Made by a program: the position numbers and the translations under genes. Below, one piece after another: positions 23,728 through 61,277 of a stretch of 64,000 nt of DNA. This DNA is from Echinarachnius parma (lineage: Eukaryota > Echinodermata > Echinoidea > Clypeasteroida > Echinarachniidae): contig JBAMJV010007970.1 in the NCBI GenBank assembly GCA_037951105.1, positions 1-64,000 on the forward strand. Reading direction: 5' to 3'. A model generated the notes under the pieces. It was given only the letters and a program-made list of their open reading frames with translations, did no database searches and was not told where the DNA came from. Numbering within the stretch: position 1 is the first letter of the stretch; each line of letters opens with the position of its first letter.

Positions 23728-23769
23728 GTTGTAGTAGCGAGAGTTTTCACTCCCGTGGCAGAGTTTTCA

Positions 23770-29563: not shown

Positions 29564-29565
29564 TA

Positions 29566-30703: not shown

Positions 30704-30705
30704 TA

Positions 30706-32655: not shown

Positions 32656-32689
32656 ATCGCGCAATATATTCACCATGGATTAGTAAGAT

Positions 32690-36055: not shown

Positions 36056-36228
36056 ACTAGATGTTGAATTCGTCACTTTTGACGAATTAAGGTTATACAT
36101 ATCGATTTATTATGATAAAAGGATGATTCCAAAAATAACTTCTCAATCATCATATAAATAATAGCAGATACCCTCCCCCTCCATAATAAAAAGTAAAAAA
36201 GAAGAAAAAAAGAAAGTAAAAAAAGTAC

Positions 36229-36300
36229 TGTCTTGGATTCGAACCCACGAACCTTTGATCTTGTGTCACAAATTATACCGCGAGACCAACATTAGATCTC
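36229..36300 (-). mobile_element. tRNA-derived SINE head inside type A unit
   Basis: On the minus strand: A box like TGGTCTCGCGGTA and B box GGTTCGAATCC, with a poor anticodon stem between. The same segment recurs at about 39416-39485, 42345-42412, 45797-45860, 48625-48690 and, diverged, 60022-60100. In each case a C-run followed by an A-rich stretch lies just upstream on the plus strand. It was therefore captured by an ancestral unit and amplified with it. Confidence 0.7.
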
Positions 36301-37227
36301 TTAACGAAAATGGGAAATTGGGAAAGATACATCAGTGATTGCACACTGCATATGTCATTGTAACAGTGAATTATTTGACCTTTGAACTTAATTTACATAT
36401 CCTTAACGCCATTTTCATATTCCAATCTTATCTTATGAACATTTTCCTTTCATTATACCATACATGTGTGCTGAATTTCATGTCCGCGGCGTACGTGGTT
36501 TTTGAGTATTCATGCTTGATTTATTTGACCTTTAACGGTAAATATGACAATGAAATATGCATTTTCGCGATTTGGTATTAACTTATGAAATGATGGACTT
36601 GCAAATCCCTATCTACATGCGAAATCTCAAATTGATAGCATAATTCCTTCAGCAGTTATAGGTCGATAACATACGTTTTGGCTAACCCTCAATTTGTAAC
36701 AGATTTGTACTCTTATTTCCAATCAAACTATTCATCAGGATCCAGTGAAGAAAACTAAATGGTGTGAATAGATCGCGAATAGAGCAGGACATCAGCTACG
36801 ATATATCACAATTTGGGAGAAAATTGATGGAGAATAAGTGAGATATGGTCAATAGTCCGCTGTGATCGATTTCAACATTGACTGAAATTGATTAAAATTC
36901 GCATTTTCAACTTTAACCGTCAATATGATAACTTTATAACATTTACTCGGCATAAATGAGGTATGAATTCGTATCTACAACTCATAATCTATCCGAATAT
37001 TAAAAGAAAATTGGATGTTTGTGGACTTTTTAAAAAGTTATGGCCGAATAAAAAAAGGATGTTTTTACCATATTTTGCCAATTTGCGTGCGCGCGTAATT
37101 TTGACTTTGACGCGCGCGTACTCCGTTATTATGAGTCAACAATGACTCAAATTGATAGGGAGTGTTGAGGGATCTATAAGGAATCCAAAACATGTGAAAA
37201 AACGACAATTTTCCTATTCATTTGTGT

Positions 37228-37266
37228 TACGCGCGCAAATACGCGCGCGCCGACGCGCACGCGCGG
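37228..37266. repeat. CpG box of type A units (alternating CG/GC)
   Basis: A 39-base stretch of GTTACGCGCGCAAATACGCG type followed by CGCCGACGCGCACGCGCGG. It is repeated nearly unchanged in units 1, 3, 5, 6, 7, 8, 9, 11 and 14, and in part in 16. Two further CpG-rich blocks flank it in each unit. The surroundings are strongly AT-rich. Confidence 0.8.
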
Positions 37267-37682
37267 AATTTTCTGAAACGCTTAAAATTGTCTGAAACAT
37301 ATAGTAAATTACTCGGGTTGGGATTTTGAGCATTTTTTGACATTTTTTTTCATTTGACGGACGCGTACGCGCGCGTCTCCGAGTGTAATTGCACGCGCAT
37401 AAGCTTAAAAGATGACCATTGACCTGATCAATATTGATGCGAAATTTGAATTGAAATTGATATTTCATGACTGAGATATGATGATTATTAACATTTGACA
37501 AAATGGCGTCCTGATGACGTCACAATCATGTGACGTCACTGAAAAAGTGGGCAGTTCTAAGTTAGAACATGATCTATCATCATGTGAAGATTCATGATAT
37601 TTGATTCATGTGATCTTGAGATAATCGACGAACAAAAGTGAGGGGTAGAATAAAGAAGAATAAAAATTCGAACAAAATCAAT

Positions 37683-37710
37683 AGGTTATACATATGTATA
37701 TGTATAACCT
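37683..37710. other. Type A 3' hairpin (example)
   Basis: Left arm AGGTTATACATAT, two-base loop GT, right arm its exact inverse, then AACTAG. The same structure ends units 1, 3, 5, 7, 8, 9 and 14. Confidence 0.85.
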
Positions 37711-37716
37711 AACTAG

Positions 37717-39249
37717 ATGTTGAATTCGTCACATTTGACGAATTAAAGGTTATACATATTGAAATTTCGATATGATGATATTGACTTTTCAACGCGTAAT
37801 ATGATGATGTCATAACATTTACTTGGCATAAATAAATGAATGACACAAAATGGGGTAACAATATTCATTCATAACAAAAGGGGAGGGGGCAGCTCTTTAA
37901 TTGACCAAAATGACTGTAAAATGGCTCTGTACCTGACGTCTTATTTCGACCATATCACACCTTTCCTTTGGCCGATTTTGACCCGGTTTTCAGTATGTTA
38001 AAGCTGAGTTTCCGCTAAACTATCGCGATTTTCGAGTTTATTTCACGATTAGAGCACGGGAACAGGTCGTAATTGAAGGTTGAACTTTTTTTTACTTTAT
38101 CGTGCACAATGATGACTTTACAAAATCTGATTGGCCAATGTTAAATTTGTAAAAATATGTGCAACTCATACTCTTTCAGAATATGAACAAATATTTGTAT
38201 ATATCCAGGTATCAAAGAAGTTGTGACCGATAAGAGAAGTGCATGTTTGACCAGATTTAGCCAATTTTCACACTCTTTGCGCGATTTCAACTTTAAGCGG
38301 TCAATTCGATGACTTTAGAACATTTACTCGGCATAAAGCAAGTATGAATTCGTATCTACAACTCATAATCAATCCAAATATTCAAATAAAATTGGGTTTT
38401 TGTCGACTTTTGAAAAAGTTATGGCCGAATTAAAAAAAGGATGTTTTTACCATATTTTGCCAATTATTTGTTTTGAACTGTTCGCCGTTAGATGTTAGAT
38501 GGCGCTCTTCAGACTTAGCCAATTTTCACACTCGTGCGCCATTTAAATTTTAACGGTCAATATGATGACTTTGTAGCATTTACTCGGCATAAATGAGGTA
38601 TGAATTCGCATCTACAACTCATAATCTTTCCGGATATTCAAAGAAATTTGGGAGTTTGTGGACTTTTTAAAAAGTTATGGCCGATAAGAGACCAGACTTG
38701 GGAAATTTTCACGCTCGTGCGCTATTTAATTTTTAACCGTCAATATGATGACTTTATAACATTAACTCGGAATAAATGAGGTATGAATTCGTATCTACAA
38801 CTCATAATCTATCCGAATATTAAAAGAAAGTTGGGTTTTTGTGGACTTTTTACAAAGTTATGCCCGAATAAAAAAATGGTTGTTTTTGAGCATTTTCAGA
38901 TTTTCAGATCCTTAGACGAGCGCGTACGCGCTTGTTACGTAGCGCATGCGTATGCGCATAATGGGAAAAGTTGCCACTCGGCCTGATAATTGTTGGTGCC
39001 AAATTTAAAGGGAAATAGAAGATGCATGACTGAGATACATCCATGAATGAAATTTCACAAAATGGCGTCCTGATGACGTCACGAATAGTCGGCGGCACTC
39101 AAAAGTTTGGCAGTTCTAAGTTAGACCAAGATCTATCATCTCGCAAAGTTTCAGGACAATAGCTGCACCCGTTATTGAGGTATCCGACGAACAAAATCCT
39201 TGTTTTCGTGTCTCTATGCATTGGCATACAGACACAAAAACAATACTAG
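37717..39249 (+). repeat. Array unit 2 (type B, 1,533 bp)
   Basis: Contains three diverged monomers of about 190-240 bp between 38270 and 38930, each with ACTCGGCATAAA, TCTACAACTCATAATC and AAAGTTATGSCCGA. Ends with the GTGTCT...AGACAC hairpin. Confidence 0.8.
37723..37744. other. 5' hairpin common to all units (example)
   Basis: Arms AATTCGTCA and TGACGAATT around a four-base loop (CATT here; CGTT, CTTT or CTAT elsewhere). Present at the start of every unit. Only unit 8 has an arm mismatch. Confidence 0.85.
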
Positions 39250-40898
39250 ATTTTGAATTCGTCACTATTGACGAATTAAGGTTATACATATCGAATTCTT
39301 ATGATAAAAGCATTATTCCAAAAATAACTACTTAATCATATAAATAATATCACATACTCCCCCCCCCCCCCCCTAATAAAAAGTAAAAAGAAGAAAAAAG
39401 AAATTAAAAAAATATTGTCTTGGATTCGAACCCACGACCCTTAGATCTTGCGTCACAACTTGTTCCACGAGACCAACATTAGATCTCTTAACGAAAATGG
39501 GAAATCGGGAACAATACATCAGCGATTGCACTCTGCATTTGTCATTGTAACAGTGAGTTATTTGACCTTTGATCCTAATTTACATATCCTTAACGCCATT
39601 TTCATAATCCGATCTTATCTTATGAACATTTTGCAATTCATTATAACATACATGTGTGCTGAATTGCATGTCCGCGGCGTACGTGGTTATTGAGTATTCA
39701 TGCTTGATTTATTTGACCTTTGACGGTAAATATGACAATGAAATATGCATTTTCGCGATTTAGTGTTAACTAATGAAATGATGGGCTTGAAAATCCCTAT
39801 CTACATGCGAAATCTCAAATTGATAGCATAATTCCTTCAGCAGTTATATGTCGATAACATACGTTTTGGCTAACCCTCAATTTGTAACAGATTTGAACTC
39901 TTATTTCCAATCAAACAATTCATCAGGATCCATTGAACAAAACTAAATGGTGTGAATAGATTGCGAATAGAGCAGAACATCAGCTACGATATATCAAAAT
40001 TTGGGAGTACATTGATGGAAAATAAGTGATATATGGTCAAAAGTACACTGTGATCGATTTCAACATTGATTGAAATTGAGTAAAATTCGCATTTTCAACT
40101 TTAACCGTCAATACGATGACTTTATAACATTTACTCAGCATAAATGAGGTATGAATTCGTATCTACAACTCATAATCTATCCGAATATTAAAAGAAAATT
40201 TGGTATTTGTGGACTTTTTAAAAAGTTATGGCCGAATAAAAAAAGTATGTTTTTACCATATTTTTCCAATTTGCGTGCGCGCGTAATTTTGACTTTGACG
40301 CGCGCGTACTCCGTTATTATGAGTCAACAATGACTCAAATTGATAGGGTGTGTTGAGGGATCTATAAGGAATGCAAAACATGTGAAAAAACGACAATTTT
40401 ACTATTCATTCGCGTTACGCGCGCAAATACGCGCGCGCCGACGCGCACGCGCGGAATTTTTTGAAACGCTTAAAATTGTCTGAAACATATAGTAAATTAC
40501 TGGGGTTGAGGTTTTGAGCATTTTTTGAATTTTGTTTTCATTTGACGGACGCGTACGCGCGCGTCTCCGAGTGTAATTGCACGCGCATGAGCTTAAAAGA
40601 TGACCAATTACCTGATCAATATTGATGCGAAATTTGAATTGGAATTGATATTTCATGACTGAGTTATGATGATTATTAACATTTTACAAAATGGTGTCCT
40701 GATGACGTCACAGTGATGTGACGTCACTGACAAAGTTGGCAGTTCTAAGTTAGAACATGATCTATCATCATGTGACGATTCATGATATTTGATTCATCTG
40801 ATCTTGAGATAATCGACGAACAAAATTAGGAAGAAGAATAAAGAAAAATCTTGACGAAATCAATAGGTTATACATATGTATATGTATAACCTAACTAG
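39250..40898 (+). repeat. Array unit 3 (type A, 1,649 bp)
   Basis: Collinear with unit 1 including SINE head (about 39416-39485), poly-C tract at 39360-39373, CpG boxes and the GGTTATACATAT terminal hairpin. Confidence 0.8.
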
Positions 40899-42170
40899 AT
40901 GTTGAATTCGTCACGTTTGACGAATTAAGGTTATACATATCGAAATTTCGATATGATGATATTGACTCTTCAACGCGTAATATGATGATGTCATAACATT
41001 TACTTGGCATAAATGAATGACACAAAATGGGGTAACAATATTCATTCATAACACAAAAGGGGAGGGGGCAGCTCTTTAATTGACCAAAATGACTGTAAAA
41101 TGGCTCTGTACCTGACGTCTTATTTCAACCATATCGCACCTTTCCTTTGGCCGATTTTGACCCGGTTTTCAGTATGCTAAAGCTGAGTTTCCGCTACACA
41201 GCGATTTTTGATTTTATTTCACGATTAGAGCACGGAAACAGGTCGTAATTGAAGGTTGAACTTTTGTTTTACTTTATCGTGCACAATGAAGACTTTACAA
41301 AATCTAATTGGCCAATGTTAAATTTGTAAAAATATGTGCAACTCATACTCTTTCAGAATATGAAAAAATATTTGTATATTTCCATGTATCAAAGAAGTTG
41401 TGACCGATAAGAGAAGTGCATGTTTGACCAGATTTAGCCAATTTTCACACTCTTTGCGCGATTTCAACTTTAAGCGGTCAATTCGATGACTTTAGAACAT
41501 TTACTCGGCATAAAGGAAGTATGAATTCGCATCTACAACTCATAATCTTTCCGGATATTCAAAGAAATTTGGGAGTTTGTGGACTTTTTAAAAAGTTATG
41601 GCCGATAAGAGACCAGACTTGGGAAATTTTCACGCTCGTGCGCTATTTAATTTTTAACCGTCAATATGATGACTTTGTGACATTTACTCGGCATGAATGA
41701 GGTATTAATTCGCATCTACAACTCATAATCTATCCGAATATTAAAATAAAAATGGGTTTTTGTGGACTTTTAAAAAAGTTATGCCCGAATAAAAAAATGG
41801 TTGTTTTTGAGCATTTTCAGATTTTAAGATCCTTAGACGGGCGCGTACGCGCTTGTTACGTAGCGCATGCGCATGCGCATACTCGGAAAAGTTGCCACTC
41901 GGCGTGATAATTATTGGTGCTAAATTTAAAGGGAAATAGAAGATGCATGACTGAGATACATCCATGAATGAAATTTTACAAAATGGCGTCCCGTTGACGT
42001 CACGAATAGTCGGCGGCACCCAAAAGTTTGGCAGTTCTAAGTTAGACCAAGATCTATCATCTGGCAAAGTTTCAGGACAATAGCTGCACCCGTTATTGAG
42101 GTATCCGACGAACAAAATCCTTGTTTTCGTGTCTCTATGCATTGGCATACAGACACAAAAACAATACTAG
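40899..42170 (+). repeat. Array unit 4 (type B, 1,272 bp)
   Basis: Like unit 2 but one monomer shorter. The terminal hairpin is at 42129-42156 with loop ATTG. Confidence 0.8.
42129..42156. other. Type B 3' hairpin (example)
   Basis: Arms GTGTCTCTATGC and GCATACAGACAC (one mismatch) around loop ATTG, followed by AAAAACAATACTAG. Ends units 2, 4, 10, 12, 13 and 15. Confidence 0.8.
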
Positions 42171-43817
42171 ATTTTGAATTCGTCACTTTTGACGAATTAA
42201 GGTTATACATATCGATTTATTATGATAAAAGGATGATTCCAAAAATAACTTCTCAATCATCATATCAATAATAATAGATTCCCCCCCCCCCCCCCCTGAA
42301 AAAAAGAAAAGAAAAAGAAAAAAAAAGAAAGTTAAAAAATATTGCCTTGGATTCGAACCCACGACCCTTTGATCTTGTGTCACAAATTTTACCGCGAGAC
42401 CAACATTAGATCACTTAACGAAAATGGGAATTCGGGAAAGATACATCAGTGATTGCACACTGCATTTGTCATTGTAACAGTGAATTATTTGACCTTTGAA
42501 CCTAATTTACATATCATTAACGCCATTTTCATAATCCGATCTTATCTTATGAAAATTGTTCCTTTCATATGTGTGCTGAATTTCCATGTCCGCGGCGTAC
42601 GTGGTTATTGAGTATTCATGCTTGATTTATTTGACCTTTGACGGTAAATATGACAATGAAATATGCATTTTCGCGATTTGGTGTTAACTTATGAAATGAT
42701 GGTCTTGCAAATCCCTATCTACATGCGAAGTTCAACATCGGTAGCATAGTTTCTCGAGCAGTTATAGGTCGAAAGCATACGTTTTGACTAACCCTCAATT
42801 TGTAACAGATTTGAACTCTTATTTCCAATCAAACAATTAATCAGGATCTAGTGAACAAAACGAAATGTCGTGAATAGATTGCGAATAGAGCATGACATCA
42901 GCTACGATATATCAAAATTTGGGAGAAAATAGTTGGAGAATAACCGAGATATGGTCATAAGTCCGCTGTGATCGATTTCAACATTGATTGAAATTGATTA
43001 AAATTTGCATGTTCAATTTTAACCCTAAATATGGAGACTTTATAACATTTACTCGGCATAAATGAGGTATGAATTCGTATCGACAACTCATAATCTATCC
43101 GAATATTAAAAGAAAATCGGATGTTTGTGGACTTTTTAAAAAGTTATGGCCGAATAAAAAAAGGATGTTTTTACCATATTTTGCCAATTTGCGTGCGCGC
43201 GTAATTTTGACTTTGACGCGCGCGTACTCCGTTATTATGAGTCAACAATGACTCAAATTGATAGGGTGTGTTTAGGGATCTATAAGGCATGCAAAACATG
43301 TAAAAAAACGACAATTTTCTTATTAATTCGCGTTACGCGCGCAAATACGCGCGCGCCGACGCGCACGCGCGGAATTTTTTGAAACGCTTAAAATTGTCTG
43401 AAACATATAGTAAATTACTCGGGTTGGGGTTTTGAACATTTTTAATTTTTGTTTTCACTTGACGGACGCGTACGCGCGCGTCTCCGAGTGTAAGCGCACG
43501 CGCATGAGCTTAAAAGATGACGATTGAACTGTTTGATATTGATGCGAAATTTGAAGTGAAATTAATGATGCATGACTGAGTTATGATGATTATTGAAATT
43601 TGACAAAATGGCGTCCTGATGACGTCACAGTGATGTGACGACATTGAAAAGTTTGACTGCACTAAGTTAGACCATGATCTATCATCATGTGAAGTTTCAT
43701 GACAATTGATTCATTTGATCTTGAGATATGCGACGAACAAAATTGGGAAGAATAATAAGAAGAAAAATCTTGACGAAATCAATAGGTTATACATATGTAT
43801 ATGTATAACCTAACTAG
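42171..43817 (+). repeat. Array unit 5 (type A, 1,647 bp)
   Basis: Type A with SINE head at about 42345-42412 and poly-C at 42282-42297. Some internal differences from units 1 and 3 (for example the CRE region has one site altered). Confidence 0.8.
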
Positions 43818-45633
43818 ATGTTGAATTCGTCACATTTGACGAATTAAGGTTATACATATTGAAATTTCGATATGATGATATTGACTTTTCAACGCGTAAT
43901 ATGATGATGTCATAACATTTACTTGGCATAAATGAATGACACAAAATAGGGTAACAATATAAATTCATTACATTCAATTGTTATCAAATTGGGGAGTGGG
44001 AAGCTCTTAAATTGACCAAAATGACTGTAAAATGGCTCTGTACCTGACGTCTTATTTTGACCATATCACACCTTTCCTTTGGCCGATTTGTACCCGGTTT
44101 TCAGTATGTTAAAGCTGAGTTTCCGCTACACTATCACGATTTTAGATTTTATTTCACGATTAGAGCACGGGAACAGGTCGTAATTGAAGGTTGAACTTTT
44201 GTTTTACTTTATCGTGCACTATGGAGACTTTACAAAATCTTATTGTCCATTGTTAGGTATGTATAAATATGTGCAACTCATACTCTTTCAGAATATGAAA
44301 AAATATTTGGATATATCCATGTATCAAAGAAGTTATGACCGATAAGAGAAGGGCATGTTTGACCAGATTTAGCCAATTTTCACACTCGTGCGCGATTTCA
44401 ACTTTAACCGTCAATTCGATGACTTTATAACATTTACTCGGCATAAATGAGGTATGAATTCGTATCTACAACTCATAATCTATCGGAATATTAAATAAAA
44501 CTGGGTGTTTGTGGACTTTTTAAAAAGTTATGGCCGAATACAAAAAGGATGTTTTTACCATATTTTGCCAATTTGCGTGCGCGCGGACAGATTTGTTAAT
44601 TATCCGCCGATAGATGGCGCTATTCTCCACTCCAAATCATGGTTGTAATTGAAGGTTGAACTTTTCTTTTACTTTATCGTGCACTATGGAGACTTTACAA
44701 AATCGGATTGGCCATTGTTAGATATGTAAAAATATGTGCAACTCATACTCTTTCAGAATATGTAAAAATATTTGGATATATCCATGTATCACAGAAGTTG
44801 TGACCGTTAAGAGAAGGGCATGTTTGACCAGATTTAGCCAATTTTCACACTCGTGCGCGATTTCAACTTTAACCGTCAATTCGATGACTTTATAACATTT
44901 ACTCGGCATAAATGAGGTATGAATTCGCATTTACAACTCATACTCTATCCGAATATTAAAAGAAAATTGTGTGTTTGTTGACTTTTTAAAAAGTTATGGC
45001 CGAATAAAAAAAGTATGTTTTTACCATATTTTGCCAAATTGCGTGCGCGCGTAATTTTGACTTTGACGCGCGCGTACTCCTTTATTATGAGTCAACAATG
45101 ACTCAAATTGATAGGGTGTGTTGAGGGATCTATAAGGACTGCAAAACATGTGAAAAAACGACAATTTTCCTATTCATTCGCGTTACGCGCGCAAATACGC
45201 GCGCGCTGACGCGCACGCGCGGAATTTTTTGAAACGCTTAAAATTGTCTGAAACATATAGTAAATTACTCGGGTTGGGGTTTTGAGCATTTTTTGACATT
45301 TTTTTTCATTTGACGGACGCGAACGCGCGCGTCTCCGAGTGTAATTGCACGCGCATGAGCTTAAAAGATGACCATTGACCCGATTAATATTGGTGCGAAA
45401 TTTGAATTGAAATTGATAAATCATGACTGAGATATGATGATTATTAACATTTGACAAAATGGCGTCCTGATGACGTCATAGTAATGTGACGTCACTGAAA
45501 AAGCTTGCAGATCTAAGTTAGATCATGATCTATCATCATGTGAAGATTCATGACAATTGATTCATGTGATCTTGAGATATGCGACGAACAAAATTGATGG
45601 GAAGAATAAATAAATAATAATAATAATAACTAG
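43818..45633 (+). repeat. Array unit 6 (hybrid, 1,816 bp)
   Basis: Starts as type B, repeats the GTAATTGAAGGTTGAACTTT segment twice, then switches to the type A CpG region. Ends in (AAT)n directly before ACTAG with no hairpin. Its second half resembles unit 11. Confidence 0.75.
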
Positions 45634-47283
45634 ATGTTGAATTCGTCACGTTTGACGAATTAAGGTTATACATATCGATTTATTATGATAAAAGGATGAT
45701 TCCAAAAATAACTACTCAATCATGATATCAATAATAATAGATTCCCCCCCCCCCCTGAAAAAAAAAAAAAAAAAGGAAACAAAAAAATGTATTGCCTTGG
45801 ATTCGAACCCACGACCCTTTGATCTTGTGTCACAAATTATACCGCGAGACCAACATTATATCTCTTAACAAAAATGGGAAATCGGGAAAGATACATCAGT
45901 GATTGCACATTCCATTTGTCATTGTAACAGTGAATTATTTGACCTTTGAACCTAATTTACATATCCTTAACACCACTTTCATAATCCGATCTTATCTAAT
46001 GAAAATTGTTCCTTTCATTATAACATACATGTGTGCTGAATTTCATGTCCGCGGTGTACGTGGTTATTAAGTATTCATGCTTGATTTATTTGACCTTTGA
46101 CGGTAAATATGACAATGAAATATGCATTTTCGCGATTTGGTGTTAACTTATGAAATGATGGGCTTGCAAATCCCTATCTACATGCGAAGTTTCACATTGG
46201 TAGCATAATTCCTCCAGCAGTTATAGGTCGAAAGCATACGTTTTGGCTAAACCTCAATTTTATCAGATTTGGACTCTTATTTACAATCAAACAATTCATC
46301 AGGATCCAGTTAACATAACGAATTGTTGTGAAAAGATTGCGAATGGAGTACGACATCAGTTACGATATATCGAAATTTGGGAGAAAATTTATGGAGAATA
46401 AGCGAGATATGGTCAATAGTCCGCTGTGATCGATTTCAACATTGATTGAAATTGATTAAAATTCGCATTTTCAACTTTAACCGTCAATACGAAGACTTTA
46501 TAACATTTACTCGGCATAAATGAGGTATGAATTCGTATCTACAACTCATAATCTATCCGAATATTAAAAGAAAATTGGGTGTTTGTGGACTTTTTAAAAA
46601 GTTATGGCCGAATACAAAAAGGATGTTTTTACCATGTTTTGCCATTTTTTGCCATTTTGCGTGCGCGCGTAATTTTGACTTTGACACGCGCGTACTCCGT
46701 TATTATGAGTCAATAATGACTCAAATTGATAGGGTGTGCTGAGGGATGTATAAGAATTGCAAAACATGTAAAAAAACTACATTTTTTTTATTCATTCGCG
46801 TTACGCGCGCAAATACGCGCGCGCCGACGCGCACGCGCGGAATTTTTTGAAACGCTTAAAATTGTCTGAAACATATAGTAAATTACTCGGGTAAGGGTTT
46901 TGAGCATTTAAAAAAAAAAAAATTAATTGACGGACGCGTACGCGCGCGTCTCCGAGTGTAATTGCATGCGCATGAGCTTAAAAGATGAACATTGACCTGA
47001 TAAATATTGATGCAAAATTTGAATTAAAATTGATATTTCATGACTGAGTTATGATGATTATTAACATTTGACAAAATGGCGTCCTGATGATGTCACAGTG
47101 ATGTGACGTCACTGAAAAAGTTGGCAGTTCTAAGTTAGAACATGATCTATCATCATGTGATAATTCATGATATTTGATTCATCTGATCTTGAGATAATCG
47201 ACGAACAAAATTAGGAAGAAGAATAAATAAAAATCTTGACGAAATCAATAGGTTATACATATGTATATGTATAACCTAACTAG
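45634..47283 (+). repeat. Array unit 7 (type A, 1,650 bp)
   Basis: Almost identical to unit 9 (48459-50112). I saw only a handful of substitutions plus homopolymer length changes. SINE head at about 45797-45860. Confidence 0.8.
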
Positions 47284-48458: not shown

Positions 48459-50112
48459 ATGTTGAATTCGTCACGTTTGACGAATTAAGGTTATACATAT
48501 CGATTTATTATGATAAAAGGATGATTCCAAAAATAACTACTCAATCATGATATCAATAATAATAGATTCCCCCCCCCCCCCCCCTGAAAAAAAAAAAAAA
48601 AAAGGAAACAAAAAAATGTATTGCCTTGGATTCGAACCCACGACCCTTTGATCTTGTGTCACAAATTATACCGCGAGACCAACATTATATCTCTTAACAA
48701 AAATGGGAAATCGGGAAAGATACATCAGTGATTGCACATTCCATTTGTCATTGTAACAGTGAATTATTTGACCTTTGAACCTAATTTACATATCCTTAAC
48801 ACCACTTTCATAATCCGATCTTATCTAATGAAAATTGTTCCTTTCATTATAACATACATGTGTGCTGAATTTCATGTCCGCGGTGTACGTGGTTATTAAG
48901 TATTCATGCTTGATTTATTTGACCTTTGACGGTAAATATGACAATGAAATATGCATTTTCGCGATTTGGTGTTAACTTATGAAATGATGGGCTTGCAAAT
49001 CCCTATCTACATGCGAAGTTTCACATTGGTAGCATAATTCCTCCAGCAGTTATAGGTCGAAAGCATACGTTTTGGCTAAACCTCAATTTTATCAGATTTG
49101 GACTCTTATTTACAATCAAACAATTCATCAGGATCCAGTTAACATAACGAATTGTTGTGAAAAGATTGCGAATGGAGTACGACATCAGTTACGATATATC
49201 GAAATTTGGGAGAAAATTTATGGAGAATAAGCGAGATATGGTCAATAGTCCGCTGTGATCGATTTCAACATTGATTGAAATTGATTAAAATTCGCATTTT
49301 CAACTTTAACCGTCAATACGAAGACTTTATAACATTTACTCGGCATAAATGAGGTATGAATTCGTATCTACAACTCATAATCTATCCGAATATTAAAAGA
49401 AAATTGGGTGTTTGTGGACTTTTTAAAAAGTTATGGCCGAATACAAAAAGGATGTTTTTACCATGTTTTGCCATTTTTTGCCATTTTGCGTGCGCGCGTA
49501 ATTTTGACTTTGACACGCGCGTACTCCGTTATTATGAGTCAATAATGACTCAAATTGATAGGGTGTGCTGAGGGATGTATAAGAATTGCAAAACATGTAA
49601 AAAAACTACATTTTTTTTATTCATTCGCGTTACGCGCGCAAATACGCGCGCGCCGACGCGCACGCGCGGAATTTTTTGAAACGCTTAAAATTGTCTGAAA
49701 CATATAGTAAATTACTCGGATAAGGGTTTTGAGCATTTAAAAAAAAAAAAATTAATTGACGGACGCGTACGCGCGCGTCTCCGAGTGTAATTGCATGCGC
49801 ATGAGCTTAAAAGATGAACATTGACCTGATAAATATTGATGCAAAATTTGAATTAAAATTGATATTTCATGACTGAGTTATGATGATTATTAACATTTGA
49901 CAAAATGGCGTCCTGATGACGTCACAGTGATGTGACGTCACTGAAAAAGTTGGCAGTTCTAAGTTAGAACATGATCTATCATCATGTGATAATTCATGAT
50001 ATTTGATTCATCTGATCTTGAGATAATCGACGAACAAAATTAGGAAGAAGAATAAAGAAAAATCTTGACGAAATCAATAGGTTATACATATGTATATGTA
50101 TAACCTAACTAG
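48459..50112 (+). repeat. Array unit 9 (type A, 1,654 bp)
   Basis: Near-duplicate of unit 7. SINE head at about 48625-48690, two intact CRE-like sites. Confidence 0.8.
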
Positions 50113-51384
50113 ATGTTGAATTCGTCACGTTTGACGAATTAAGGTTATACATATTGAAATTTCGATATGATGATATTGACTTTTCAACGCGTAATATGAT
50201 GATGTCATAACATTTACTTGGCATAAATGAATGACACAAAATACGGTAACAATATTAATTCATAACAAAAGGGGAGGGGGAAGCTCTTAAATTTACCAAA
50301 ATGACTGTAAAATGGCTCTGTACTTGACGTCTTATTTTGACCATATCACACTTTTCCTTTGGCCGATTTTTACCCGGTTTTCAGTATGTTAAAGCTGAGT
50401 TTCCGCTACCTTATCGCGATTTTCGATTTTATTTCACGATTAGAGCACGGGAACAGGTCGTAATTGAAGGTTGAACTTTTTTTTACTTTATCGTGCACTA
50501 TGATGACTTTACCAAATCTGATTGGCCAATGTTAAATTTGTAAAAATATGTGCAACTCATACTCTTTCAGAATATGAAAAAATATTTGTATATTTCCATG
50601 TATCAAAGAAGTTGTGACCGATAAGAGAAGTGCATGTTTGACCAGATTTAGCCAATTTTCACACTCTTTGCGCGATTTCAACTTTAACCGGTCAATTCGA
50701 TGACTTTAGAACATTTACTCGGCATAAAGGAGGTATGAATTCGCATCTACAACTCATAATCTTTCCGGATATTTAAAGAAATTTGGGAGTTTGTGGACTT
50801 TTTAAAAAGTTATGGCCGATAAGAGACCAGACTTGGGAAATTTTCACGCTCGTGCGCTATTTAATTTTTAACCGTCAATATGATGACTTTATAACATTTA
50901 CTCGGCATAAATGAGTTATGAATTCGCATCTACAACTCATAATCTATCCGAATATTCAAATAGAAATGGGTTTTTGTGGACTTTTTAAAAAGTTATGCCC
51001 GAATAAAAAAATGGTTGTTTTTGAGCATTTTCAGATTTTAAGATCCTTAGACGGGCGCGTACGCGCTTGTTACGTAGCGCATGCGCATGCGCATAATCGG
51101 AAAAGTTGCCACTCGGCCTGATAATTGTTGGTGCTAAATTTAAAGGGAAATAGAAGATGCATGACTGAGATACATCCATGAATGTAATTTCACAAAATGG
51201 CGTCCCGATGACGTCACGAATAGTCGGCGGCACCCAAAAGTTTGGCAGTTCTAAGTTAGACCAAGATCTATCATCTGGCTAAGTTTCAGGACAATAGCTG
51301 CACCCGTTATTGAGGTATCCGACGAACAAAATCCTTGTTTTCGTGTCTCTATGCACTCGCATACAGACACAAAAACAATACTAG
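50113..51384 (+). repeat. Array unit 10 (type B, 1,272 bp)
   Basis: Same length and layout as unit 4. The terminal hairpin loop reads ACTC in place of ATTG while both arms are kept. Confidence 0.8.
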
Positions 51385-52907
51385 ATTTTGAATTCGTCAC
51401 TTTTGACGAATTAAGGTTATACATACTGAAAATACTATAATATGGTATTACATGTATATTGCCTTTTCAACAGGAAATATGATGATTTAAGTACATTTAT
51501 TGATATAAATGAATTTCACAAAAAGGGTACAAATATTAATTCATAACATTCAATTGTAATCCAAATTGGAGTGGGAAGCTCTTAAATTTACCAAAATGAC
51601 TGTAAAATGGCTCTGTACTTGACGTCTTATGTTTGACCAGATTTAGCCAATTTTCACACTCTTGCGCGATTTCAACTTTCAACCGTCAATTCGATGACTT
51701 AATAACATTTACTCGGCATAAATGAGGTATGAATTCGTATCTACAACTCATAATCTATCCGAATATTAAATAAAATTGGGTGTTTGTGGACTTTTTAAAA
51801 AGTTATGGCCGAATACAAAAAGGATGTTTTACCATATTTTGCCAATTTGCGTGCGCGCGGACAGATTTTTGAATTATCCGCCGATAGATGGCGCTATTCT
51901 ACACTCCAAATCATGGTCGTAATTGAAGGTTGAACTTTTCTTTTACTTTATCGTGCACTATGGAGACTTTACAAAATCGGATTGTCCATTGTTAGGTATG
52001 TAAAAATATGTGCAATTCATACTCTTTCAGAATATGAAAAAATATTTGGATATATCCATGTCTCAAAGAAGTTATGACCGATAAGAGAAGGGCATGTTTG
52101 ACCAGATTTAGCCAATTTTCACACTCGTGCGCGATTTCAACTTTAACCGTCAATTCGATGACTTTATAACATTTACTCGGCATAAATGAGGTATGGATTC
52201 GTATCTACAACTCATAATCTATCCGAATATTAAAAGAAAATTGGGTGTTTGTGGACTTTTTAAAAAGTTATGGACGAATAAAAAAAGTATGTTTTTATCA
52301 TATTTTGCCAATTTGCGTGCGCGCGTAATTTTGACTTTGACGCGCGCGTACTCCGTTATTATGAGTCAACAATGACTCAAATTGATAGGGTGTGTTGAGG
52401 GATCTATAAGGAATGCAAAACATGTGAAAAAACGACAATTTTACTATTCATTCGCGTTACGCGCGCAAATACGCGCGCGCCGACGCGCACGCGCGGAATT
52501 TTTTGAAACGCTTAAAATTGTCTGAAACATATAGTAAATTACTCGGGTTGAGGTTTTGAGCATTTTTTGACATTTTTTTTCATTTGACGGACGCGTACGC
52601 GCGCGTCTGCGAGTGTAATTGCACGCGCATGAGCTTAAAAGATGACCATTGACCTGATTAATATTGATGCGAAATTTCAAATGAAGTTAATGATGCATGA
52701 CTGAGATATGATGATTATTGAAATTTGACAAAATGGCGTCCTGATGACGTCATTGTAATGTGACGTCACTGAAAAAGTTAGCAGATCTAAGTTAGATCAT
52801 GATCTATCATCATGTGAAGATTCATGACAATTGATTCATGTGATCTTGAGATATGCGACGAACAAAATTGATGGGAAGAATAAATAAATAATAATAATAA
52901 TAACTAG
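51385..52907 (+). repeat. Array unit 11 (hybrid, 1,523 bp)
   Basis: The 5' hairpin is standard, but the following 200 bp (from CTGAAAATACTATAATATGG) differ from all other units. It then joins the unit 6-like body with the CpG boxes and ends in (AAT)n and ACTAG. Confidence 0.75.
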
Positions 52908-54436
52908 ATGTTGAATTCGTCACGTTTGACGAATTAAAGGTTATACATATTGAAATTTCGATATGATGATATTGACTCTTCAACGCGTAATTATGATAAT
53001 GTCATAACATTTACTTGGCATAAATGAATGACACAAAATGGGGTAACAATATTCATTCATAACAAAAGGGGAGGGGGCAGCTCTTTAATTGACCAAAATG
53101 ACTGTAAAATGGCTCTGTACCTGACGTCTTATTTCAACCATATCACACCTTTCCTTTGGCCGATTTTGACCCGGTTTTCAGTATGCTAAAGCTGAGTTTG
53201 CTCTACACAATCATTTTTTCGATTTTATTTCACGATTTGAGCACGGGAACAGGTCGTAATTGAAGGTTGAACTTTTTTTTTCTTTATCGTGCACTATGAT
53301 GACTTTACAAAATCTGATTGGCCAATGTTAAAATTGTAAAAATATGTGCAACTCATACTCTTTCAGAATATGAAAAAAATATTTGTATATTTCCATGTAT
53401 CAAAGAAGTTGTGACCGATAAGAGAAGTGCATGTTTGACCAGATTTAGCCAATTTTCACACTCTTTGCGCGATTTCAACTTTAAGCGGTCAATTCGATGA
53501 CTTTAGAAGATTTACTCGGCATAAAGCAAGTATGAATTCGTATCTACAACTCATAATCTATCCAAATATTCAAATAAAATTGGGTTTTAGTCGACCTTTG
53601 AAAAAGTTATGGCCGAATAAAAAAAGGATATTTTTACCATATTTTGCCAATTATTTGTTTTGAATTGTTCGCCCTTAGATGTTAGATGGCGCTGTTCAGA
53701 CTTAGCCAATTTTCACACTCGTGCGCTTTTTAAATCTTAACGGTCAATATGATGACTTTGTAACATTTACTCGGCATAAATGAGGTATGAATTCGCATCT
53801 ACAACTCATAATCTTTCCGGATATTCAAAGAAATTTGCGAGTTTGTGGACTTTTAAAAAAGTTATGGCCGATAAGAGAGCAGACTTGGGAAATTTTCACG
53901 CTCGTGCGCTATTTAATTTTTAACCGTCAATATGATGACTTTATGACATTTACTCGGCATGAATGAGGTATGAATTCGCATCTACAACTCATAATCTATC
54001 CGAATATTAAAATAGAAATGGGTTTTTGTGGACTTTTTAAAAAGTTATGCCCGAATAAAAAAATGGTTGTTTTTGAGCATTTTCAGATTTTAAGATCCTT
54101 AGACGGGCGCGTACGCGCTTGTTACGTAGCGCATGCGTATGCGCATACTCGGAAAAGTTGCCACTCGGCGTGATGATTATTGGTGCCAAATTTAAAGGGA
54201 AATAGAAGATGCATGACTGAGATACATCCATGAATGAAATTTCACAAAATGGCGTCCCGATGACGTCACGAATAGTCGGCGGCACTTAAAAGTTTGGCAG
54301 TTCTAAGTTAGACCAAGATCTATCATCTGGCAAAGTTTCAGGACAATAGCTGCACCCGTTATTGAGGTATCCGACGAACAAAATCCTTGTTTTCGTGTCT
54401 CTATGCATTGGCATACAGACACAAAAACAATACTAG
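52908..54436 (+). repeat. Array unit 12 (type B, 1,529 bp)
   Basis: Three-monomer type B like unit 2. Ends with the GTGTCT...AGACAC hairpin. Confidence 0.8.
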
Positions 54437-55969
54437 ATGTTGAATTCGTCACTTTTGACGAATTGAAGGTTATACATAATGAAATTTCGATATATTATGA
54501 TAATTGACTTTTCAACGCGTAATTATGATGATGTCATGACATTTACTTGGCATAAATGAATGACACAAAATAGGGTAACAATATTCATTCATAACAAAAG
54601 GGGGAGGGGGGAGCTCTTAAATTGACCAAAATGACTGTAAAATGGCTCTGTACCTGACGTCTTATTTCAACCATATCACACCTTTCCTTTGGCCGATTTT
54701 GACCCGGTTTTCAGTATGTTAAAGCTGAGTTTCCTCTACACAATCATTTTTTCGATTTTATTTCACGATTTGAGCACGGGAACAGGTCGTAATTGAAGGT
54801 TGAACTTTTTTTTTCTTTATCGTGCACTATGATGACTTTACAAAATCTGATTGGCCAATGTTAAAATTGTAAAAATATGTGCAACTCATACTCTTTCAGA
54901 ATATGAAAAAAATATTTGTATATTTCCATTTATCAAAGAAGTTGTGACCGATAAGAGAAGTGCATGTTTGACCAGATTTAGCCAATTTTCACACTCTTTG
55001 CGCGATTTCAACTTTAACCGGTCAATTCGATGACTTTAGAACATTTACTCGGCATAAAGCAAGTATGAATTCGTATCTACAACTCATAATCTATCCAAAT
55101 ATTCAAATACAATTGGGTTTTTGTCGACTTTTGAAAAAGTTATGGCCGAATTAAAAAAGGATGTTTTTACCATATTTGGCCAATTATTTGTTTAGAACTG
55201 TTCGCCCTTAGATGTTAGATGGCGCTGTTCAGACTTAGCCAATTTTCACACTGGTGCGCTTTTTAAATCTTAACGGTCAATATGATGACTTTGTAACATT
55301 TACTCGGCATAAATGAGGTATGAATTCGCATCTACAACTCATAATCTTTCCGGATATTCAAAGAAATTTGCGAGTTTGTGGACTTTTAAAAAAGTTATGG
55401 CCGATAAGAGACCAGACTTGGAAAATTTTCACACTCGTGCGCTATTTAATTTTTAACCGTCAATATGATGACTTTATAACATTTACTCGGCATAAATGAG
55501 GTATCTATTCGCATCTACAACTCATAATCTATCCGAATGTTAAAATAAAATTGGGTTTTTGTGGACTTTTTACAAAGTTATGCCCGAATAAAAAAATGGT
55601 TGTTTTTGAGCATTTTCAGATTTTAAGATCCTTAGACGGGCGCGTACGCGCTTGGTACTTGGCGCATGCGCATGCGCATACTCGGAAAAGTTGCCACTCG
55701 GCGTGATAATTATTAGTGCTAAATTTAAAGGGAAATAGAAGATGCATGACTGAGATACATCCATGAATGTAATTTCACAAAATGGCGTCCCGATAACGTC
55801 ACGAACAGTTGGCGGCACCCAAAAGTTTGGCAGTTCTAAGTTAGACCAAGATCTATCATTCCGCAAAGTTTCAGGACAATAGCTGCACCCGTTATTGAGG
55901 TATCCGACGAACAAAATCCTTGTTTTCGTGTCTCTATGCATTGGCATACAGACACAAAAACAATACTAG
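54437..55969 (+). repeat. Array unit 13 (type B, 1,533 bp)
   Basis: Close relative of unit 12, with the same monomer count and the same 3' hairpin type. Confidence 0.8.
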
Positions 55970-58307
55970 ATGTTGAATTCGTCACGTTTGACGAATTAAA
56001 GGTTATACATATTGAAATTACGATATGATGATATTGACTTTTCAACGCGTAATTATGATGATGTCATAACATTGACTTGGCATAAATGAATGACACCAAA
56101 TAGGGTAACAATATTCATTCATAACATTCAATTCATAACAAAAGGGGAGTGGGAAGCTCTTAAATTGACCAAAATGACTGTAAAATGGCTCTGTACCTGA
56201 CGTCTTATTTCAACCATATCACACCTTTCCTTTGGCCGATTTTGACCCGGTTTTCAGTATGCTAAAGCTGAGTTTCCTCTACACAATCATTTTTTCGATT
56301 TTATTTTACGATTTGAGCAGGGGAACAGGTCGTAATTGAAGGTTGAACTTTTTTTTTCTTTATCGTGCACTATGATGACTTTACCAAATCTGATTGGCCA
56401 ATGTTAAAATTGTAAAAATATGTGCAACTCATACTCTTTCAGAATATGAAAAAAATATTTGTATATTTCCATGTATCAAAGAAGTTGTGACCGATAAGAG
56501 AAGTGCATGTTTGACCAGATTTAGCCAATTTTCACACTCTTTGCGCGATTTCAACTTTAACCGGTCAATTCGATGACTTTAGAAGATTTACTCGGCATAA
56601 ATGAGGTATGAATTCGTATCTACAACTCATGATCTATCCAAATATTCAAATAAAATTGGGTTTTTGTCGACTTTTGAAAAAGTTATGGCCGAATTAAAAA
56701 AGGATGTTTTTACCATATTTTGCCAATTATTTGTTTTGAATTGTTCGCCCTTAGATGTTAGATGGCGCTATATACAGACTTAGCCAATTTTCACACTCGT
56801 GCGCCATTTAAATCTTAACGGTCAATATGATGACTTTGTAACATTTACTCGGCATAAATGAGGTATGAATTCGCATCTACAACTCATAATCTTTCCGGAT
56901 ATTCAAAGAAATTTGCGAGTTTGTGGACTTTTTAAAAAGTTATGGCCGATAAGAGACCAGACTTCGGAAATTTTCACACTCGTGCGCTATTTAATTTTTA
57001 ACCGTCAATATGATGACTTTATAACATTTACTCGGCATAAATGAGGTATGAATTCGTATCTACAACTCATAATCTGTCCGAATATTAAAAGAAAGTTGGG
57101 TTTTTGTTGACTTTTTACAAAGTTATGCCCGAATAAAAAAATGGTTGCATTTTTGCGATTTGGTGTTAACTTATGAAATGATGGTCTTGCAAATCCCTAT
57201 CTACATGCGAAGTTTCACATCGGTAGCATAGTTTCTCGAGCAGTTATAGGTCGAAAGCATACGTTTTGGCTAACCCTCAATTTGTAACAGATTTGAACTC
57301 TTATTTCCAATCAAACAATTTATCAGGATCCAGTGAACAAAACGAAATGTTGTGAATAGATTGCGAATAGAGCATGACATCAGCTACGATATATCAAAAT
57401 TTGGGAGAAAATCGTTGGAGAATAACCGAGATATGGTCAAAAGTCCGCTGTGATCGATTTCAACATTGATTGAAATTGATTAAAATTTGCATGTTCAACT
57501 TTAACCGTAAATATGATGACTTTATAACATTTACTCGGCATAAATGAGGTATGAATTCGTATCTACAACTCATAGTCTATCCGAATATTAAAAGAAAATT
57601 GGGTGTTTGTGGACTTTTTAAAAAGTTATGGCCGAATACAAAAAGGATGTTTTTACCATGTTTTGCCATTTTTTGCCATTTTGCGTGCGCGCGTAATTTT
57701 GACTTTGACACGCGCGTACTCCGTTATTATGAGTCAATAATGACTCAAATTGATAGGGTGTGCTGAGGGATGTATAAGAATTGCAAAACATGTACAAAAA
57801 ATACATTTTTTTTATTCATTCGCGTTACGCGCGCAAATACGCGCGCGCCGACGCGCACGCGCGGAATTTTTTGAAACGCTTAAAATTGTCTGAAACATAT
57901 AGTAAATTACTCGGGTAAGGGTTTTGAGCATTTAAAAAAAAAATAATTAATTGACGGACGCGTACGCGCGCGTCTCCGAGTGTAATTGCATGCGCATGAG
58001 CTTAAAAGATGAACATTGACCTGATAAATATTGATGCAAAATTTGAATTGAAATTTATATTTCATGACTGAGTTATGATGATTATTAACATTTGACAAAA
58101 TGGCGTCCTGATGACGTCACAGTGATGTGACGTCACTGAAAAAGTTGGCAGTTCTAAGTTAGAACATGATCTATCATCATGTGATAATTCATGATATTTG
58201 ATTCATCTGATCTTGAGATAATCGACGAACAAAATTAGGAAGAAGAATAAAGAAAAATCTTGACGAAATCAATAGGTTATACATATGTATATGTATAACC
58301 TAACTAG
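55970..58307 (+). repeat. Array unit 14 (B-to-A fusion, 2,338 bp)
   Basis: Runs as type B to about 57145, then switches within GGTTGCATTTTTGCGATTTGG to the second half of type A. It ends with the type A hairpin. It looks like a recombination product that skipped a unit boundary. Confidence 0.8.
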
Positions 58308-59854
58308 ATGTTGAATTCGTCACGTTTGACGAATTAAGGTTATACATATTGAAATTTCGATAAATTATGATGATATTGACTTTTCAACGCGTAATATGAT
58401 GATGTCACAACATTTACTTGGCATAAATGAATGACACCAAATAGGGTAACAATATTAATTCATTACATTCAATTGTTATCAAATGGGGAGTGGGAAGCTC
58501 TTAAATTTACCAAAATGACTGTAAAATGGCTCTGTACCTGACGTCTTATTTCAACCATATCACACCTTTCCTTTGGCCGATTTTGACCCGGTTTTTAGTA
58601 TGTTAAAGCTGAGTTTCCGCTACACTGTCGCGATTTTTGAGTTTATTTCACGATTAGAGCACGGGAACAGGTCGTAATTGAAGGTTGAACTTTTTTTTTC
58701 TTTATCGTGCACTATGATGACTTTACAAAATCTGATTGGCCAATGTTAAAATTGTAAAAATATGTGCAACTCATACTCTTTCAGAATATGAAAAAAATAT
58801 TTGTATATTTCCATTTATCAAAGAAGTTGTGACCGATAAGAGAAGTGCATGTTTGACCAGATTTAGCCAATTTTCACACTCTTTGCGCGATTTCAACTTT
58901 AAGCGGTCAATTCGATGACTTTAGAAGATTTACTCGGCATAAAGCAAGTATGAATTCGTATCTACAACTCATAATATATCCAAATATTCAAATAAAATTG
59001 GGTTTTTCTCGACTTTTGAAAAAGTTATGGCCGAATTAAAAAAGGATGTTTTTACCATATTTTGCCAATTATTTGTTTAGAACTGTTCGCCCTTAGATGT
59101 TAGATGGCGCTGTTCAGACTTAGCCAATTTTCACACTGGTGCGCTTTTTAAATCTTAACGGTCAATATGATGACTTTGTAACATTTACTCGGCATAAATG
59201 AGGTATGAATTCGCATCTACAACTCATAATCTTTCCGGATATTCAAAGAAATTTGCGAGTTTGTGGACTTTTTAAAAAGTTATGGCCGATAAGAGACCAG
59301 ACTTGGGAAATTTTCACACTCGTGCGCCATTTAATTTTTAACCGTCAATATGATGACTTTATGACATTTACTCGGCATGAATGAGGTATCTATTCGCATC
59401 TACAACTCATAATCTATCCGAATATTCAAATAGAAATGGGAGTTTGTGGACTTTTAAAAAAGTTATGCCCGAATAAAAAAATGGTTGTTTTTGAGCATTT
59501 TCAGATTTTAAGATCCTTAGACGGGCGCGTACGCGCTTGTTACGTAGCGCATGCGCATGCGCATAATCGGAAAAGTTGCCACTCGGCGTGATAATTATTG
59601 GTGCTAAATTTAAAGGGAAATAGAAGATGCATGACTGAGATACATCCATGAATGTAATTTCACAAAATGGCGTCCCGATGACGTCACGAATAGTCGGCGG
59701 CACCCAAAAGTTTGGCAGTTCTAAGTTAGACCAAGATCTATCATCTGGCAAAGTTTCAGGACAATAGCTGCACCCGTTATTGAGGTATCCGACGAACAAA
59801 ATCCTTGTTTTCGTGTCTCTATGCACTCGCATACAGACACAAAAACAATACTAG
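58308..59854 (+). repeat. Array unit 15 (type B, 1,547 bp)
   Basis: Three-monomer type B. The hairpin loop is ACTC as in unit 10. Confidence 0.8.
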
Positions 59855-61277
59855 ATGTTGAATTCGTCACGTTTGACGAATTAAGGTTATACATATCGAT
59901 TTATTATGATAAAAGGATGATTCCAAAAATAACTACTCAATCATCATATAAATAACATTATATACCCCTCCCCCCCCAATAAAAAGAAAAAAATAAGAAA
60001 AAAGAAAGTAAAAAAAAAATATTGCCTTGGATTCGAACCCACGACAATTAGACAGACTTAAGATCTAGAGTGACAGATTCGTACCACGACACCAGCCCTT
60101 CCTTGTTCACTTGACAGAGATAAACAAATGATGGAATATGAGTAAAAGATTGCACTCTGCATTTGCCAATACAAGATATAATGTTGATGCGTGGCAGACT
60201 TATCATAATTGTATAAATTCGCAATTTCACCTTTAACGCTCAATATGATGACCTTATAACATTTACTTGGCATAAATGAGGAATAAATTCGTATCTACAA
60301 CTCATAATCTATCCGAATATTAAAATAAAATTGGGTGTTTGTGGACTTTAAAAAAAGTTATGGCCGAATAAAAAAAACAATGTTTTTACCATATTTGGCC
60401 AATTTGCGTGTGCGCGTAATTTTGACTTTGACGCGCGCATACTCCGTTATTAAGAGTCAACAATGACTCAAATTGATAGGGTGAGTTGAGGGATGTATCA
60501 GGATTGCAAAACATGTGAAAAAACGGCATTTTTCCTATTTATTTGCGTTACGCGCGCAAATACGCGTGGCAGACTAATCACAATTGTATAGAGACACATT
60601 ATAGTTCCTGAATTCATATTATTAGATAATTTAAACCACAGCACTTTTAGAGTATAACCTCAGCTACAACATATCGAAATCTGGGAGAAAATAAACGGAG
60701 AATAAGCGAGATATGGTCGGAAGTCTGCTGTGATTGATTTCGAAATCGATTAAAATAAGTTAAAATGCGCATTTTCAACTTTAACCGTCAATATGATGAC
60801 TTTATAACATTTACTCGGTATACATGAGGTATGAATTCGTATCTACAACTCATAATCTATCCGAATATTAAAGGAAAATTGGGTGTTTGTGGACTTTTTA
60901 AAAAGTTATGGCCAAATAAAAAAATGATGTTTTTACCATATTTTGCCAATTTGCGTGCGCGCGTAATTTTGACCTGATAAATATTGATACGAAATTTGAA
61001 TTGAAATTGATATTTCATGACTGAGATATGATAATTATTAAAAATTTGACAAAATGGCGTCCTGATGACGTCACATCATGTGACGATTCATGATATTTGA
61101 TTCATCTGATCTTGAGATAATCGACGAACAAAAGTGAGGGGTAGAATAAAGAAGAAGAAGAAGAAAAACAATTCGAACAAAATCAATAGGTTATACGTAT
61201 GATATACGTATAACCTAAAACTCTTGACGAAATCAATAAGGTTATACATATGTATATGTATAACCTATGTATAACCT
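59855..61277 (+). repeat. Array unit 16 (rearranged type A, last unit)
   Basis: Starts as type A with a diverged SINE head (about 60022-60100), then has internal losses and repeats. It ends with two successive terminal hairpins, one carrying a paired change in both arms (61188-61216). Then a truncated TTAA MITE follows without an ACTAG end. Confidence 0.7.

Follow-up and report, generated by a model that had tools for sequence, protein, structure and literature searches.

Tandem Hairpin-Ended Units in Echinarachnius parma Resemble Stacked Non-Coding Helitron-Superfamily Elements

Introduction

Canonical Helitrons (Helitron1) begin with TC, end with CTRR preceded by a hairpin 10-12 nt upstream, and insert at A/T sites without target-site duplication. 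The anatomy of Helentrons and HINEs comprises a 5′ repeat, a nearby inverted copy, central repeats, a 3′ repeat and a palindrome, and these elements insert at TT (PMC4067079; PMC7492417). Fusarium Helitron2 carries asymmetric inverted repeats and hairpins (PMC5148889), while Helraiser/Helibat has a terminator hairpin, diversified 3′ ends and abutting insertions (PMC4778049). Tandem Helitron clusters in bat and silkworm have been attributed to bypassed termination (PMC4067079; PMC7492417). In plants, many Helitron arrays have multiple 5′ ends and a single 3′ end, and fly data attribute transposon dimers to insertion-site preference (both as summarized in PMC12628747). Here we analyze an array of hairpin-ended tandem units in the sand dollar Echinarachnius parma (assembly GCA_037951105.1, contig JBAMJV010007970.1, positions 1 to 64,000 of the forward strand; this 64,000-nt stretch is called the window).

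At slightly better than even odds (roughly 0.53), we read the array as a stack of complete non-coding elements resembling the Helitron superfamily. These would belong to two related subfamilies, A and B, would be nearest to non-autonomous Helitron2/Helentron elements, and would have recombined later. Stacked rolling-circle elements have precedents, and the array is informative, not revolutionary.

Organization of the Array

The 25-kb array contains 16 head-to-tail non-coding units of 1175-2338 bp. It is known from one assembly and its unit borders are read from this one array; unit classes were assigned by sequence comparison among the 16 units. Class A consists of units 1, 3, 5, 7 and 9 and the divergent unit 16, and class B of units 2, 4, 10, 12, 13 and 15, with units 4 and 10 as short forms. 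Units 8 and 14 are hybrids with a B head and an A tail. A third form, T (units 6 and 11), has a B-like head (76-83% identity to B units), an A-like tail and an (AAT)n end. The features are as follows, with hp1 and hp2 denoting the two 3′ hairpins.

36056..61267, + strand: whole array, 16 head-to-tail units and a 50-nt 3′-end remnant
36056..37711, + strand: unit 1, class A, 1656 bp, hp1 end; first unit, its ACTAG without a recognizable preceding unit
37712..39244, + strand: unit 2, class B, 1533 bp, hp2 end
39245..40893, + strand: unit 3, class A, hp1 end
40894..42165, + strand: unit 4, class B short form, 1272 bp, hp2 end
42166..43812, + strand: unit 5, class A, hp1 end
43813..45628, + strand: unit 6, B-like head, A-like tail, (AAT)n end without hairpin
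45629..47278, + strand: unit 7, class A, hp1 end
47279..48453, + strand: unit 8, hybrid of a B head of about 106 nt and an A body, hp1 end
48454..50107, + strand: unit 9, class A, hp1 end
50108..51379, + strand: unit 10, class B short form, hp2 end
51380..52902, + strand: unit 11, B-like head, A-like tail, (AAT)n end
52903..54431, + strand: unit 12, class B, hp2 end
54432..55964, + strand: unit 13, class B, hp2 end
55965..58302, + strand: unit 14, hybrid, B-like over 1-1191 with an A body, hp1 end, 2338 bp
58303..59849, + strand: unit 15, class B, hp2 end
59850..61217, + strand: unit 16, divergent A-like, hp1-variant end at 61187-61217
61218..61267, + strand: remnant of one more class-A 3′ end, with subterminal repeat and hp1, no ACTAG after it
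36067..36088, + strand: 5′ hairpin, example from unit 1, 9-bp stem and 4-nt loop
37682..37711, + strand: hp1 3′ hairpin, example from unit 1, flush with the next ACTAG
39200..39243, + strand: hp2 3′ hairpin, example from unit 2, 18-bp stem, stopping one base short of ACTAG

The motif ACTAGATKTTG has 16 exact matches in the window, all on the + strand, the first at 36056 and the last at 59850. With up to one mismatch the count rises to 19, where 3.2 would be expected, and none of 100 shuffles reaches it. K is T in units 3, 5 and 11 and G in the remaining 13. Every one of the 15 internal joins falls exactly at ACTAG. The first 48 nt show 92-100% identity among all units, and over the first 150 nt A heads and B heads are only 51-64% identical. 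Tandem Repeats Finder (TRF) detects 183-bp central satellite-like repeats in unit 2 and units 12-15.

An earlier reading of the sequence (the original prediction) had described sixteen units with a common 5′ hairpin and an ACTAG|ATKTTG join, set head to tail at one exact nucleotide and including hybrids, and all of this is borne out. It had also proposed two families sharing a 5′ end, which stands. The kinship of A and B units extends further, with about 66% identity across some 360 alignment columns ahead of the terminator and related central repeats. Over 346-366 columns ending at CGACGAACAAAAT, identity is 66% for units 9 and 12, 67% for units 6 and 12, 67% for units 5 and 2, and 84% for units 6 and 9. 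The A, B and T ends have their upstream sequence in common as far as CGACGAACAAAAT, beyond which their terminators differ; it looks like the terminator was replaced while an older 3′ region, common to all, stayed in front of it. Loss of the hairpin from an A end may have given rise to the T end. Four units combine a B head with an A tail and none the reverse, numbers too small to use, with units 6 and 11 being of common ancestry.

Hairpins and the Position of ACTAG

The 5′ hairpin AATTCGTCA/TGACGAATT is found in all 16 units, and its stem is perfect in 15, against 0 expected; unit 8 has one mismatch, at the stem top. At the other end, 14 of the 16 units carry a palindrome or stem-loop, as had been predicted: seven hp1, six hp2 and the hp1 variant of unit 16, with none in units 6 and 11. 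The hp1 palindrome lies flush with the next ACTAG in units 1, 3, 5, 7, 8, 9 and 14. Its 26-nt core has eight exact copies, at these seven unit ends and in the remnant (0 expected), and over the full 30 nt there is no variation among the seven unit copies while the remnant copy is one letter off. Predicted as a hairpin, hp2 is indeed one in units 2, 4, 10, 12, 13 and 15 (six copies with 0-2 mismatches, 0 expected), and with its 18-bp stem it is more than a short hairpin; it ends one base from ACTAG. A hairpin thus directly precedes ACTAG in 13 units, one more than the twelve first counted, the exceptions being units 6 and 11, with (AAT)n, and unit 16. The last was rightly singled out as having no ACTAG after it, and its end in fact consists of two successive 3′ ends, a hairpin at 61187-61217 and then the remnant at 61218-61267. 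The remnant matches the ends of units 3, 5 and 9 in 48 of 51 alignment columns and that of unit 1 in 44 of 51.

When folded against dinucleotide shuffles, the 5′ hairpin, hp1 and full-length hp2 reach z scores of -4.6, -6.6 and -6.1, with 0 of 200 shuffles as good; in the same test the (AAT)n unit end gives no fold. For the 5′ hairpin and hp2 combined, 4 of 13 unpaired columns are variable vs 1 of 54 paired columns (Fisher p=0.004), a statistic drawn from related copies, which are hence not independent. As background, 269 columns out of 1624 are variable in A, and 147 out of 1526 in B. In the hp1 variant of unit 16 an A-T pair is replaced by G-C on both arms, and the palindrome arm remains perfect over 14 positions. 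Because stems vary less than loops and this change is two-sided, the hairpins look preserved as structures.

ACTAG had been taken for the CTRR-type 3′ terminus of a Helitron. Judged by the array edges it fits the 5′ side better, because it stands at the left edge, where no unit is recognizable upstream, and is absent after both 3′ ends at the right edge, that of unit 16 and that of the remnant. CTAG follows 15 of the 17 3′ ends, only where another unit starts. If CTAG were the 3′ end, its distance would be 10 nt to the inner hp2 stem and just 1 nt to hp1. On the simplest reading of the array edges, ACTAG would form the first five bases of the element; alternatively, a unit upstream of the left-edge ACTAG may have been lost. 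The left border reads ATATATA|ACTAG, and at internal borders an A or a T precedes ACTAG. At this single outer insertion site the flanking base is A on the left and, after the remnant, T (61268).

Comparison With Described Rolling-Circle Elements

Helentrons and HINE/DINE-1 elements (PMC4067079; oyster Cg_HINE, PMC7492417) come closest to the units as far as the available descriptions go. They share a 5′ repeat with an adjacent short inverted copy (here the 5′ hairpin, 16/16 units), a 3′ subterminal repeat followed by a palindrome (as in class-A ends; a 3′ palindrome or stem-loop in 14/16 units), and central satellite-like repeats, which are 183 bp in the array. A further likeness is that subterminal repeats are common to a family, whose subfamilies are told apart by the last 60 bp. 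The Helentron-like anatomy suggested earlier is upheld to this extent, with ends nearest to Helitron2/Helentron. In contrast, the described Helentrons and HINEs have a TT border, which the unit edges lack, and only their central repeats are tandem, whereas here whole elements are. In mite HINEs the hairpin lies 8-35 bp inside, unlike the flush hairpins of the array. Subterminal inverted repeats, at least 11 bp in Helentrons and HINEs, are imperfect here, and it is only in the remnant and six of the hp1 units that they stand out: TGACGAAATCAA, found in 6 of the 7 hp1 units and in the remnant, is inverse to the 5′ TTGAATTCGTCA at 11 of 12 positions. Unit 1 and the own end of unit 16 have a different form at this place, and the hp2 and (AAT)n units show only weak, gapped inverted matches. 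We do not file the units as Helentrons, since the hairpin architecture fits, the TT border does not, and the subterminal repeats fit in part.

Fusarium Helitron2 resembles the array in its asymmetric inverted repeats, in the hairpins at both ends of some groups, and in the reported joined-ends form and one tandem triple; its elements are coding, start with TCAG or TGCCT and finish with ATTTT or CTCCTGT, and the array units differ in these respects (PMC5148889). The plant centromeric Helitron arrays are likewise head to tail and are attributed to rolling-circle copying, but many have multiple 5′ ends and a single 3′ end, whereas the 3′ hairpin is retained here in 14 of 16 units (Xiong et al., 2016, as summarized in PMC12628747). 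Helraiser/Helibat, as described in PMC4778049, offers a 3′ hairpin terminator, 3′-end replacement, insertions abutting another Helitron and exact head-to-tail circles as points of likeness. It differs in its 5′ TC, its 3′ CTAG and a hairpin 11 nt inside the 3′ end. In all likelihood the units nevertheless work in the manner of Helitron-superfamily elements. These sequences were not met in any case described in the literature covered, which was searched at sequence level with six array stretches and lacks most subscription papers.

Divergence and Growth of the Array

The units differ from one another to very different degrees. Units 7 and 9, which are set apart by three substitutions and a single 4-nt indel, are 99.6% identical; identity is 96.2% for units 4 and 10, and 96.2% over 1275 alignment columns for units 6 and 11. 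The remaining full A pairs show 90-93% identity and the long B pairs 94-96%; units 12 and 13 are adjacent and are each other's closest full-length match. We compared the flanks of eight close pairs. Similarity is lost on both sides for units 7/9, 6/11 and 13/15; for units 7/9, the neighboring 150 bp, aligned with free ends, are identical at 78 of 90 columns on the left side and at 118 of 153 on the right side. For units 2/12 it is largely lost, and on the left steps regain 108 of 111 columns. Flank similarity of at least 90% is retained by units 4/10 (left), 12/13 (right), 1/3 (right) and 3/5 (both). With at least one similar flank in four of the eight pairs and similarity lost on both sides in others, units have been duplicated both singly and along with a neighbor or its class.

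Within classes, the nearest relative of a unit shifts along its length, so that the units are mosaics. The pairwise homoplasy index (PHI) test gave 4/1000 with all six B units, 34/1000 when the four long ones were taken by themselves, and 21/1000 with the five full A units. It gave 0/1000 in two sets from which unit 7 was omitted as near-identical to unit 9 and to which the A part of unit 14, or of units 14 and 8, was added. The PHI tests support recombination among units. The homology at the hybrid joins appears slight: the unit 8 join has 7 nt in common with units 1 and 3, or 3 nt with units 5, 7 and 9, and that of unit 14, as read from contexts, has 2 nt in common.

Head types alternate between A and B through the first ten units and cease to do so from unit 11. 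Adjacent units differ in head type at 10 of 15 joins, and a runs test on this alternation is not significant (as many runs in 1092 of 8008 orders). We therefore do not accept that the alternation proves a dimer. A heads are never next to each other, as is the case in 462 of 8008 orders.

Proposed Mechanism and Alternative Explanations

Under our preferred reading, an element would start with ACTAGATKTTG and the 5′ hairpin, and at the other end hp1 or hp2, as terminator hairpin, would reach right up to its 3′ terminus. Copying by a Rep/helicase provided from outside would begin at the 5′ end and halt at the 3′ hairpin. The circular or single-stranded product would insert beside a resident copy, at its ACTAG end, and so lengthen the array by a whole unit. 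Homologous recombination between like units, together with low-homology joins, would then yield the mosaics and the B-head/A-tail hybrids. Mobility, the rolling-circle mechanism, insertion at resident 5′ ends and the outside enzyme are all predictions from sequence. If they hold, a mobile element can become a satellite by stacking whole elements with their terminator hairpins; the stacked units would not be truncated copies, nor merely inner repeats. The array would also be a natural terminator-replacement series, in which a single conserved 5′ end is combined with hp1, hp2 or no hairpin, which helps to ask whether a rolling-circle terminator depends on structure or on sequence. We regard as unlikely the wider proposal that the units represent a rolling-circle branch of their own, with a fixed ACTAG 5′ end and a flush terminator, which targets its own 5′ ends, forms satellites of complete elements and has interchangeable unrelated terminators.

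Ordinary satellite evolution is a serious rival to such stacking, even if we hold it to be somewhat improbable. On this account the array is a complex satellite without a mobile past, in which an A/B composite repeat was spread and homogenized by unequal crossing-over and gene conversion, and its hairpins are accidental or protein-binding. A long head-to-tail array with sequence exchange between its repeats (16 units, PHI tests) is what satellite DNA looks like. The mosaic units, the adjacent and mutually closest units 12 and 13, the alternation of the first ten heads and the separation of all A heads agree with it, and so does the similarity that reaches into at least one neighboring unit in half of the close pairs. 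The alternation, however, is not significant by the runs test. A satellite origin also sits poorly with two classes that have different terminators yet share their first 48 nt, with stems less variable than loops and the two-sided change in unit 16, and with units 7 and 9, near-identical in dissimilar flanks. The pattern of growth alone does not separate transposition from ordinary satellite evolution. What favors a mobile origin is the hairpins, together with ends that are shared although their terminators differ. Units 7 and 9 also speak for stacked elements, being near-identical from end to end with similarity falling at both borders.

Several observations weigh against stacked Helitron-like elements. 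Exact joins are no proof of transposition by themselves, because satellites likewise keep register, and the similar flanks in four of the eight close pairs are equally explained by ordinary satellite evolution. Neither a dispersed copy nor an empty site was seen in the window; comparison of the array with its flanks there by blastn (36,055 bases left and 2,705 right, 38.8 kb together) gave nothing at E<=0.01, which also suits a satellite. Pfam recognized 2 of the window's 20 stop-to-stop open reading frames (ORFs) of at least 100 aa, and neither a Rep nor a helicase was among them. All 16 units begin with ACTAGATKTTG and none with the TC of canonical Helitrons; the distinct class of which the original prediction took this as a possible sign is not established. 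A T-rich or TT border is absent at the unit edges, a weak test with a single outer site. The subterminal inverted repeats are statistically weak, and weaker in the hp2 and T units: their best score is equalled in 7-40 of 1000 mononucleotide shuffles for the hp1 units and unit 16 and in 80-173 of 1000 for the hp2 and (AAT)n units. It is also equalled by 1-5 other 26-nt windows of the same unit in the former and 2-14 in the latter, and in units 1 and 3 the best match falls on another stretch.

A tandem cut-and-paste or fold-back DNA transposon, with AGGTTATACATAT as its terminal inverted repeat and some 35 nt around ACTAG as spacer, would explain why AAGGTTATACATAT lies close to the 5′ end and recurs inverted in hp1. 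We consider it quite improbable: the 5′ copy persists in six hp2 units and both (AAT)n units, whose last 75 nt show no 3′ copy, both orientations already occur within hp1, and the array edges, read by eye, revealed no target-site duplication. Even less probable is a one-step rolling-circle amplification of an A-B dimer circle. It would account for the alternating heads of the first ten units, but the alternation fails from unit 11 onward, and the nearest relatives of A units and of adjoining B units are not parallel. Divergence is layered (99.6% for units 7/9, 96% for units 4/10, 90-93% for other full A pairs). The original prediction had suggested multiplication perhaps by rolling-circle replication; a single such amplification as the source of the array we set aside because of this divergence pattern, from 99.6% to about 90%, and the mosaic units; stepwise accumulation with recombination fits better than one burst.

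Other Observations in the Array and Window

The array has further features of its own. A tRNA-like GGGTTCGAATCC box is present on the minus strand of units 1, 3, 5, 7, 9 and 16 (36235-36250 in unit 1). Of 29 matches to TGACGTCAC on both strands of the window, 27 lie within the array, between 37515 and 61074, in the 3′ part of units; this motif resembles CREB-type binding sites. A search of IMG/VR with the 5′ hairpin pattern returned six contigs, whose printed flanks are unlike the units by eye and which we took as chance, and three longer array patterns had no match there. An Rfam search of the window at gathering thresholds gave nothing, and a sub-threshold search of stretches of units 16 and 5 gave five matches, all far under gathering scores. 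ARAGORN found no tRNA in the window; at 12466-12533 there is a tRNA-like stretch with a doubled GCCTAGTGGTCACGCT, which neither ARAGORN nor Rfam calls a tRNA.

The two ORFs with Pfam matches are one with DUF1759 and one of the long interspersed nuclear element (LINE) type, the latter under the curated cut-off. Two LINE-like ORFs lie on the minus strand within 246-3615. That at 246-1934 has the sub-threshold match and relatives with endonuclease and reverse-transcriptase domains; its protein search returned 25 proteins, mostly unnamed, the best named one being from Branchiostoma belcheri at 35% identity. The second has no Pfam match. An element resembling a long terminal repeat (LTR) retrotransposon occupies 18746-25616, with 958-bp direct repeats that are 99.7% identical (18927-19884 and 24659-25616). 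Between them lies the minus-strand ORF with DUF1759 (21004-23766), a domain typical of BEL/Pao retrotransposons. Along with the LINE-type ORF, this ORF gives the window the look of animal DNA. An identical 186-bp pair is found at 18746-18931 and 23770-23955.

Several smaller repeats complete the window. At 31222-32656 a repeat of roughly 475 bp is present in about three tandem copies, which are 89-91% identical and have no blastn match to the array. A 224-bp tandem duplication with 99% matches spans 62312-62762. The inverted repeats 63058-63088/63787-63817 and 63085-63125/63635-63677 look like nested small inverted-repeat elements, and at 29562-30707 there is a foldback arrangement with inverted arms that are 89-92% alike.

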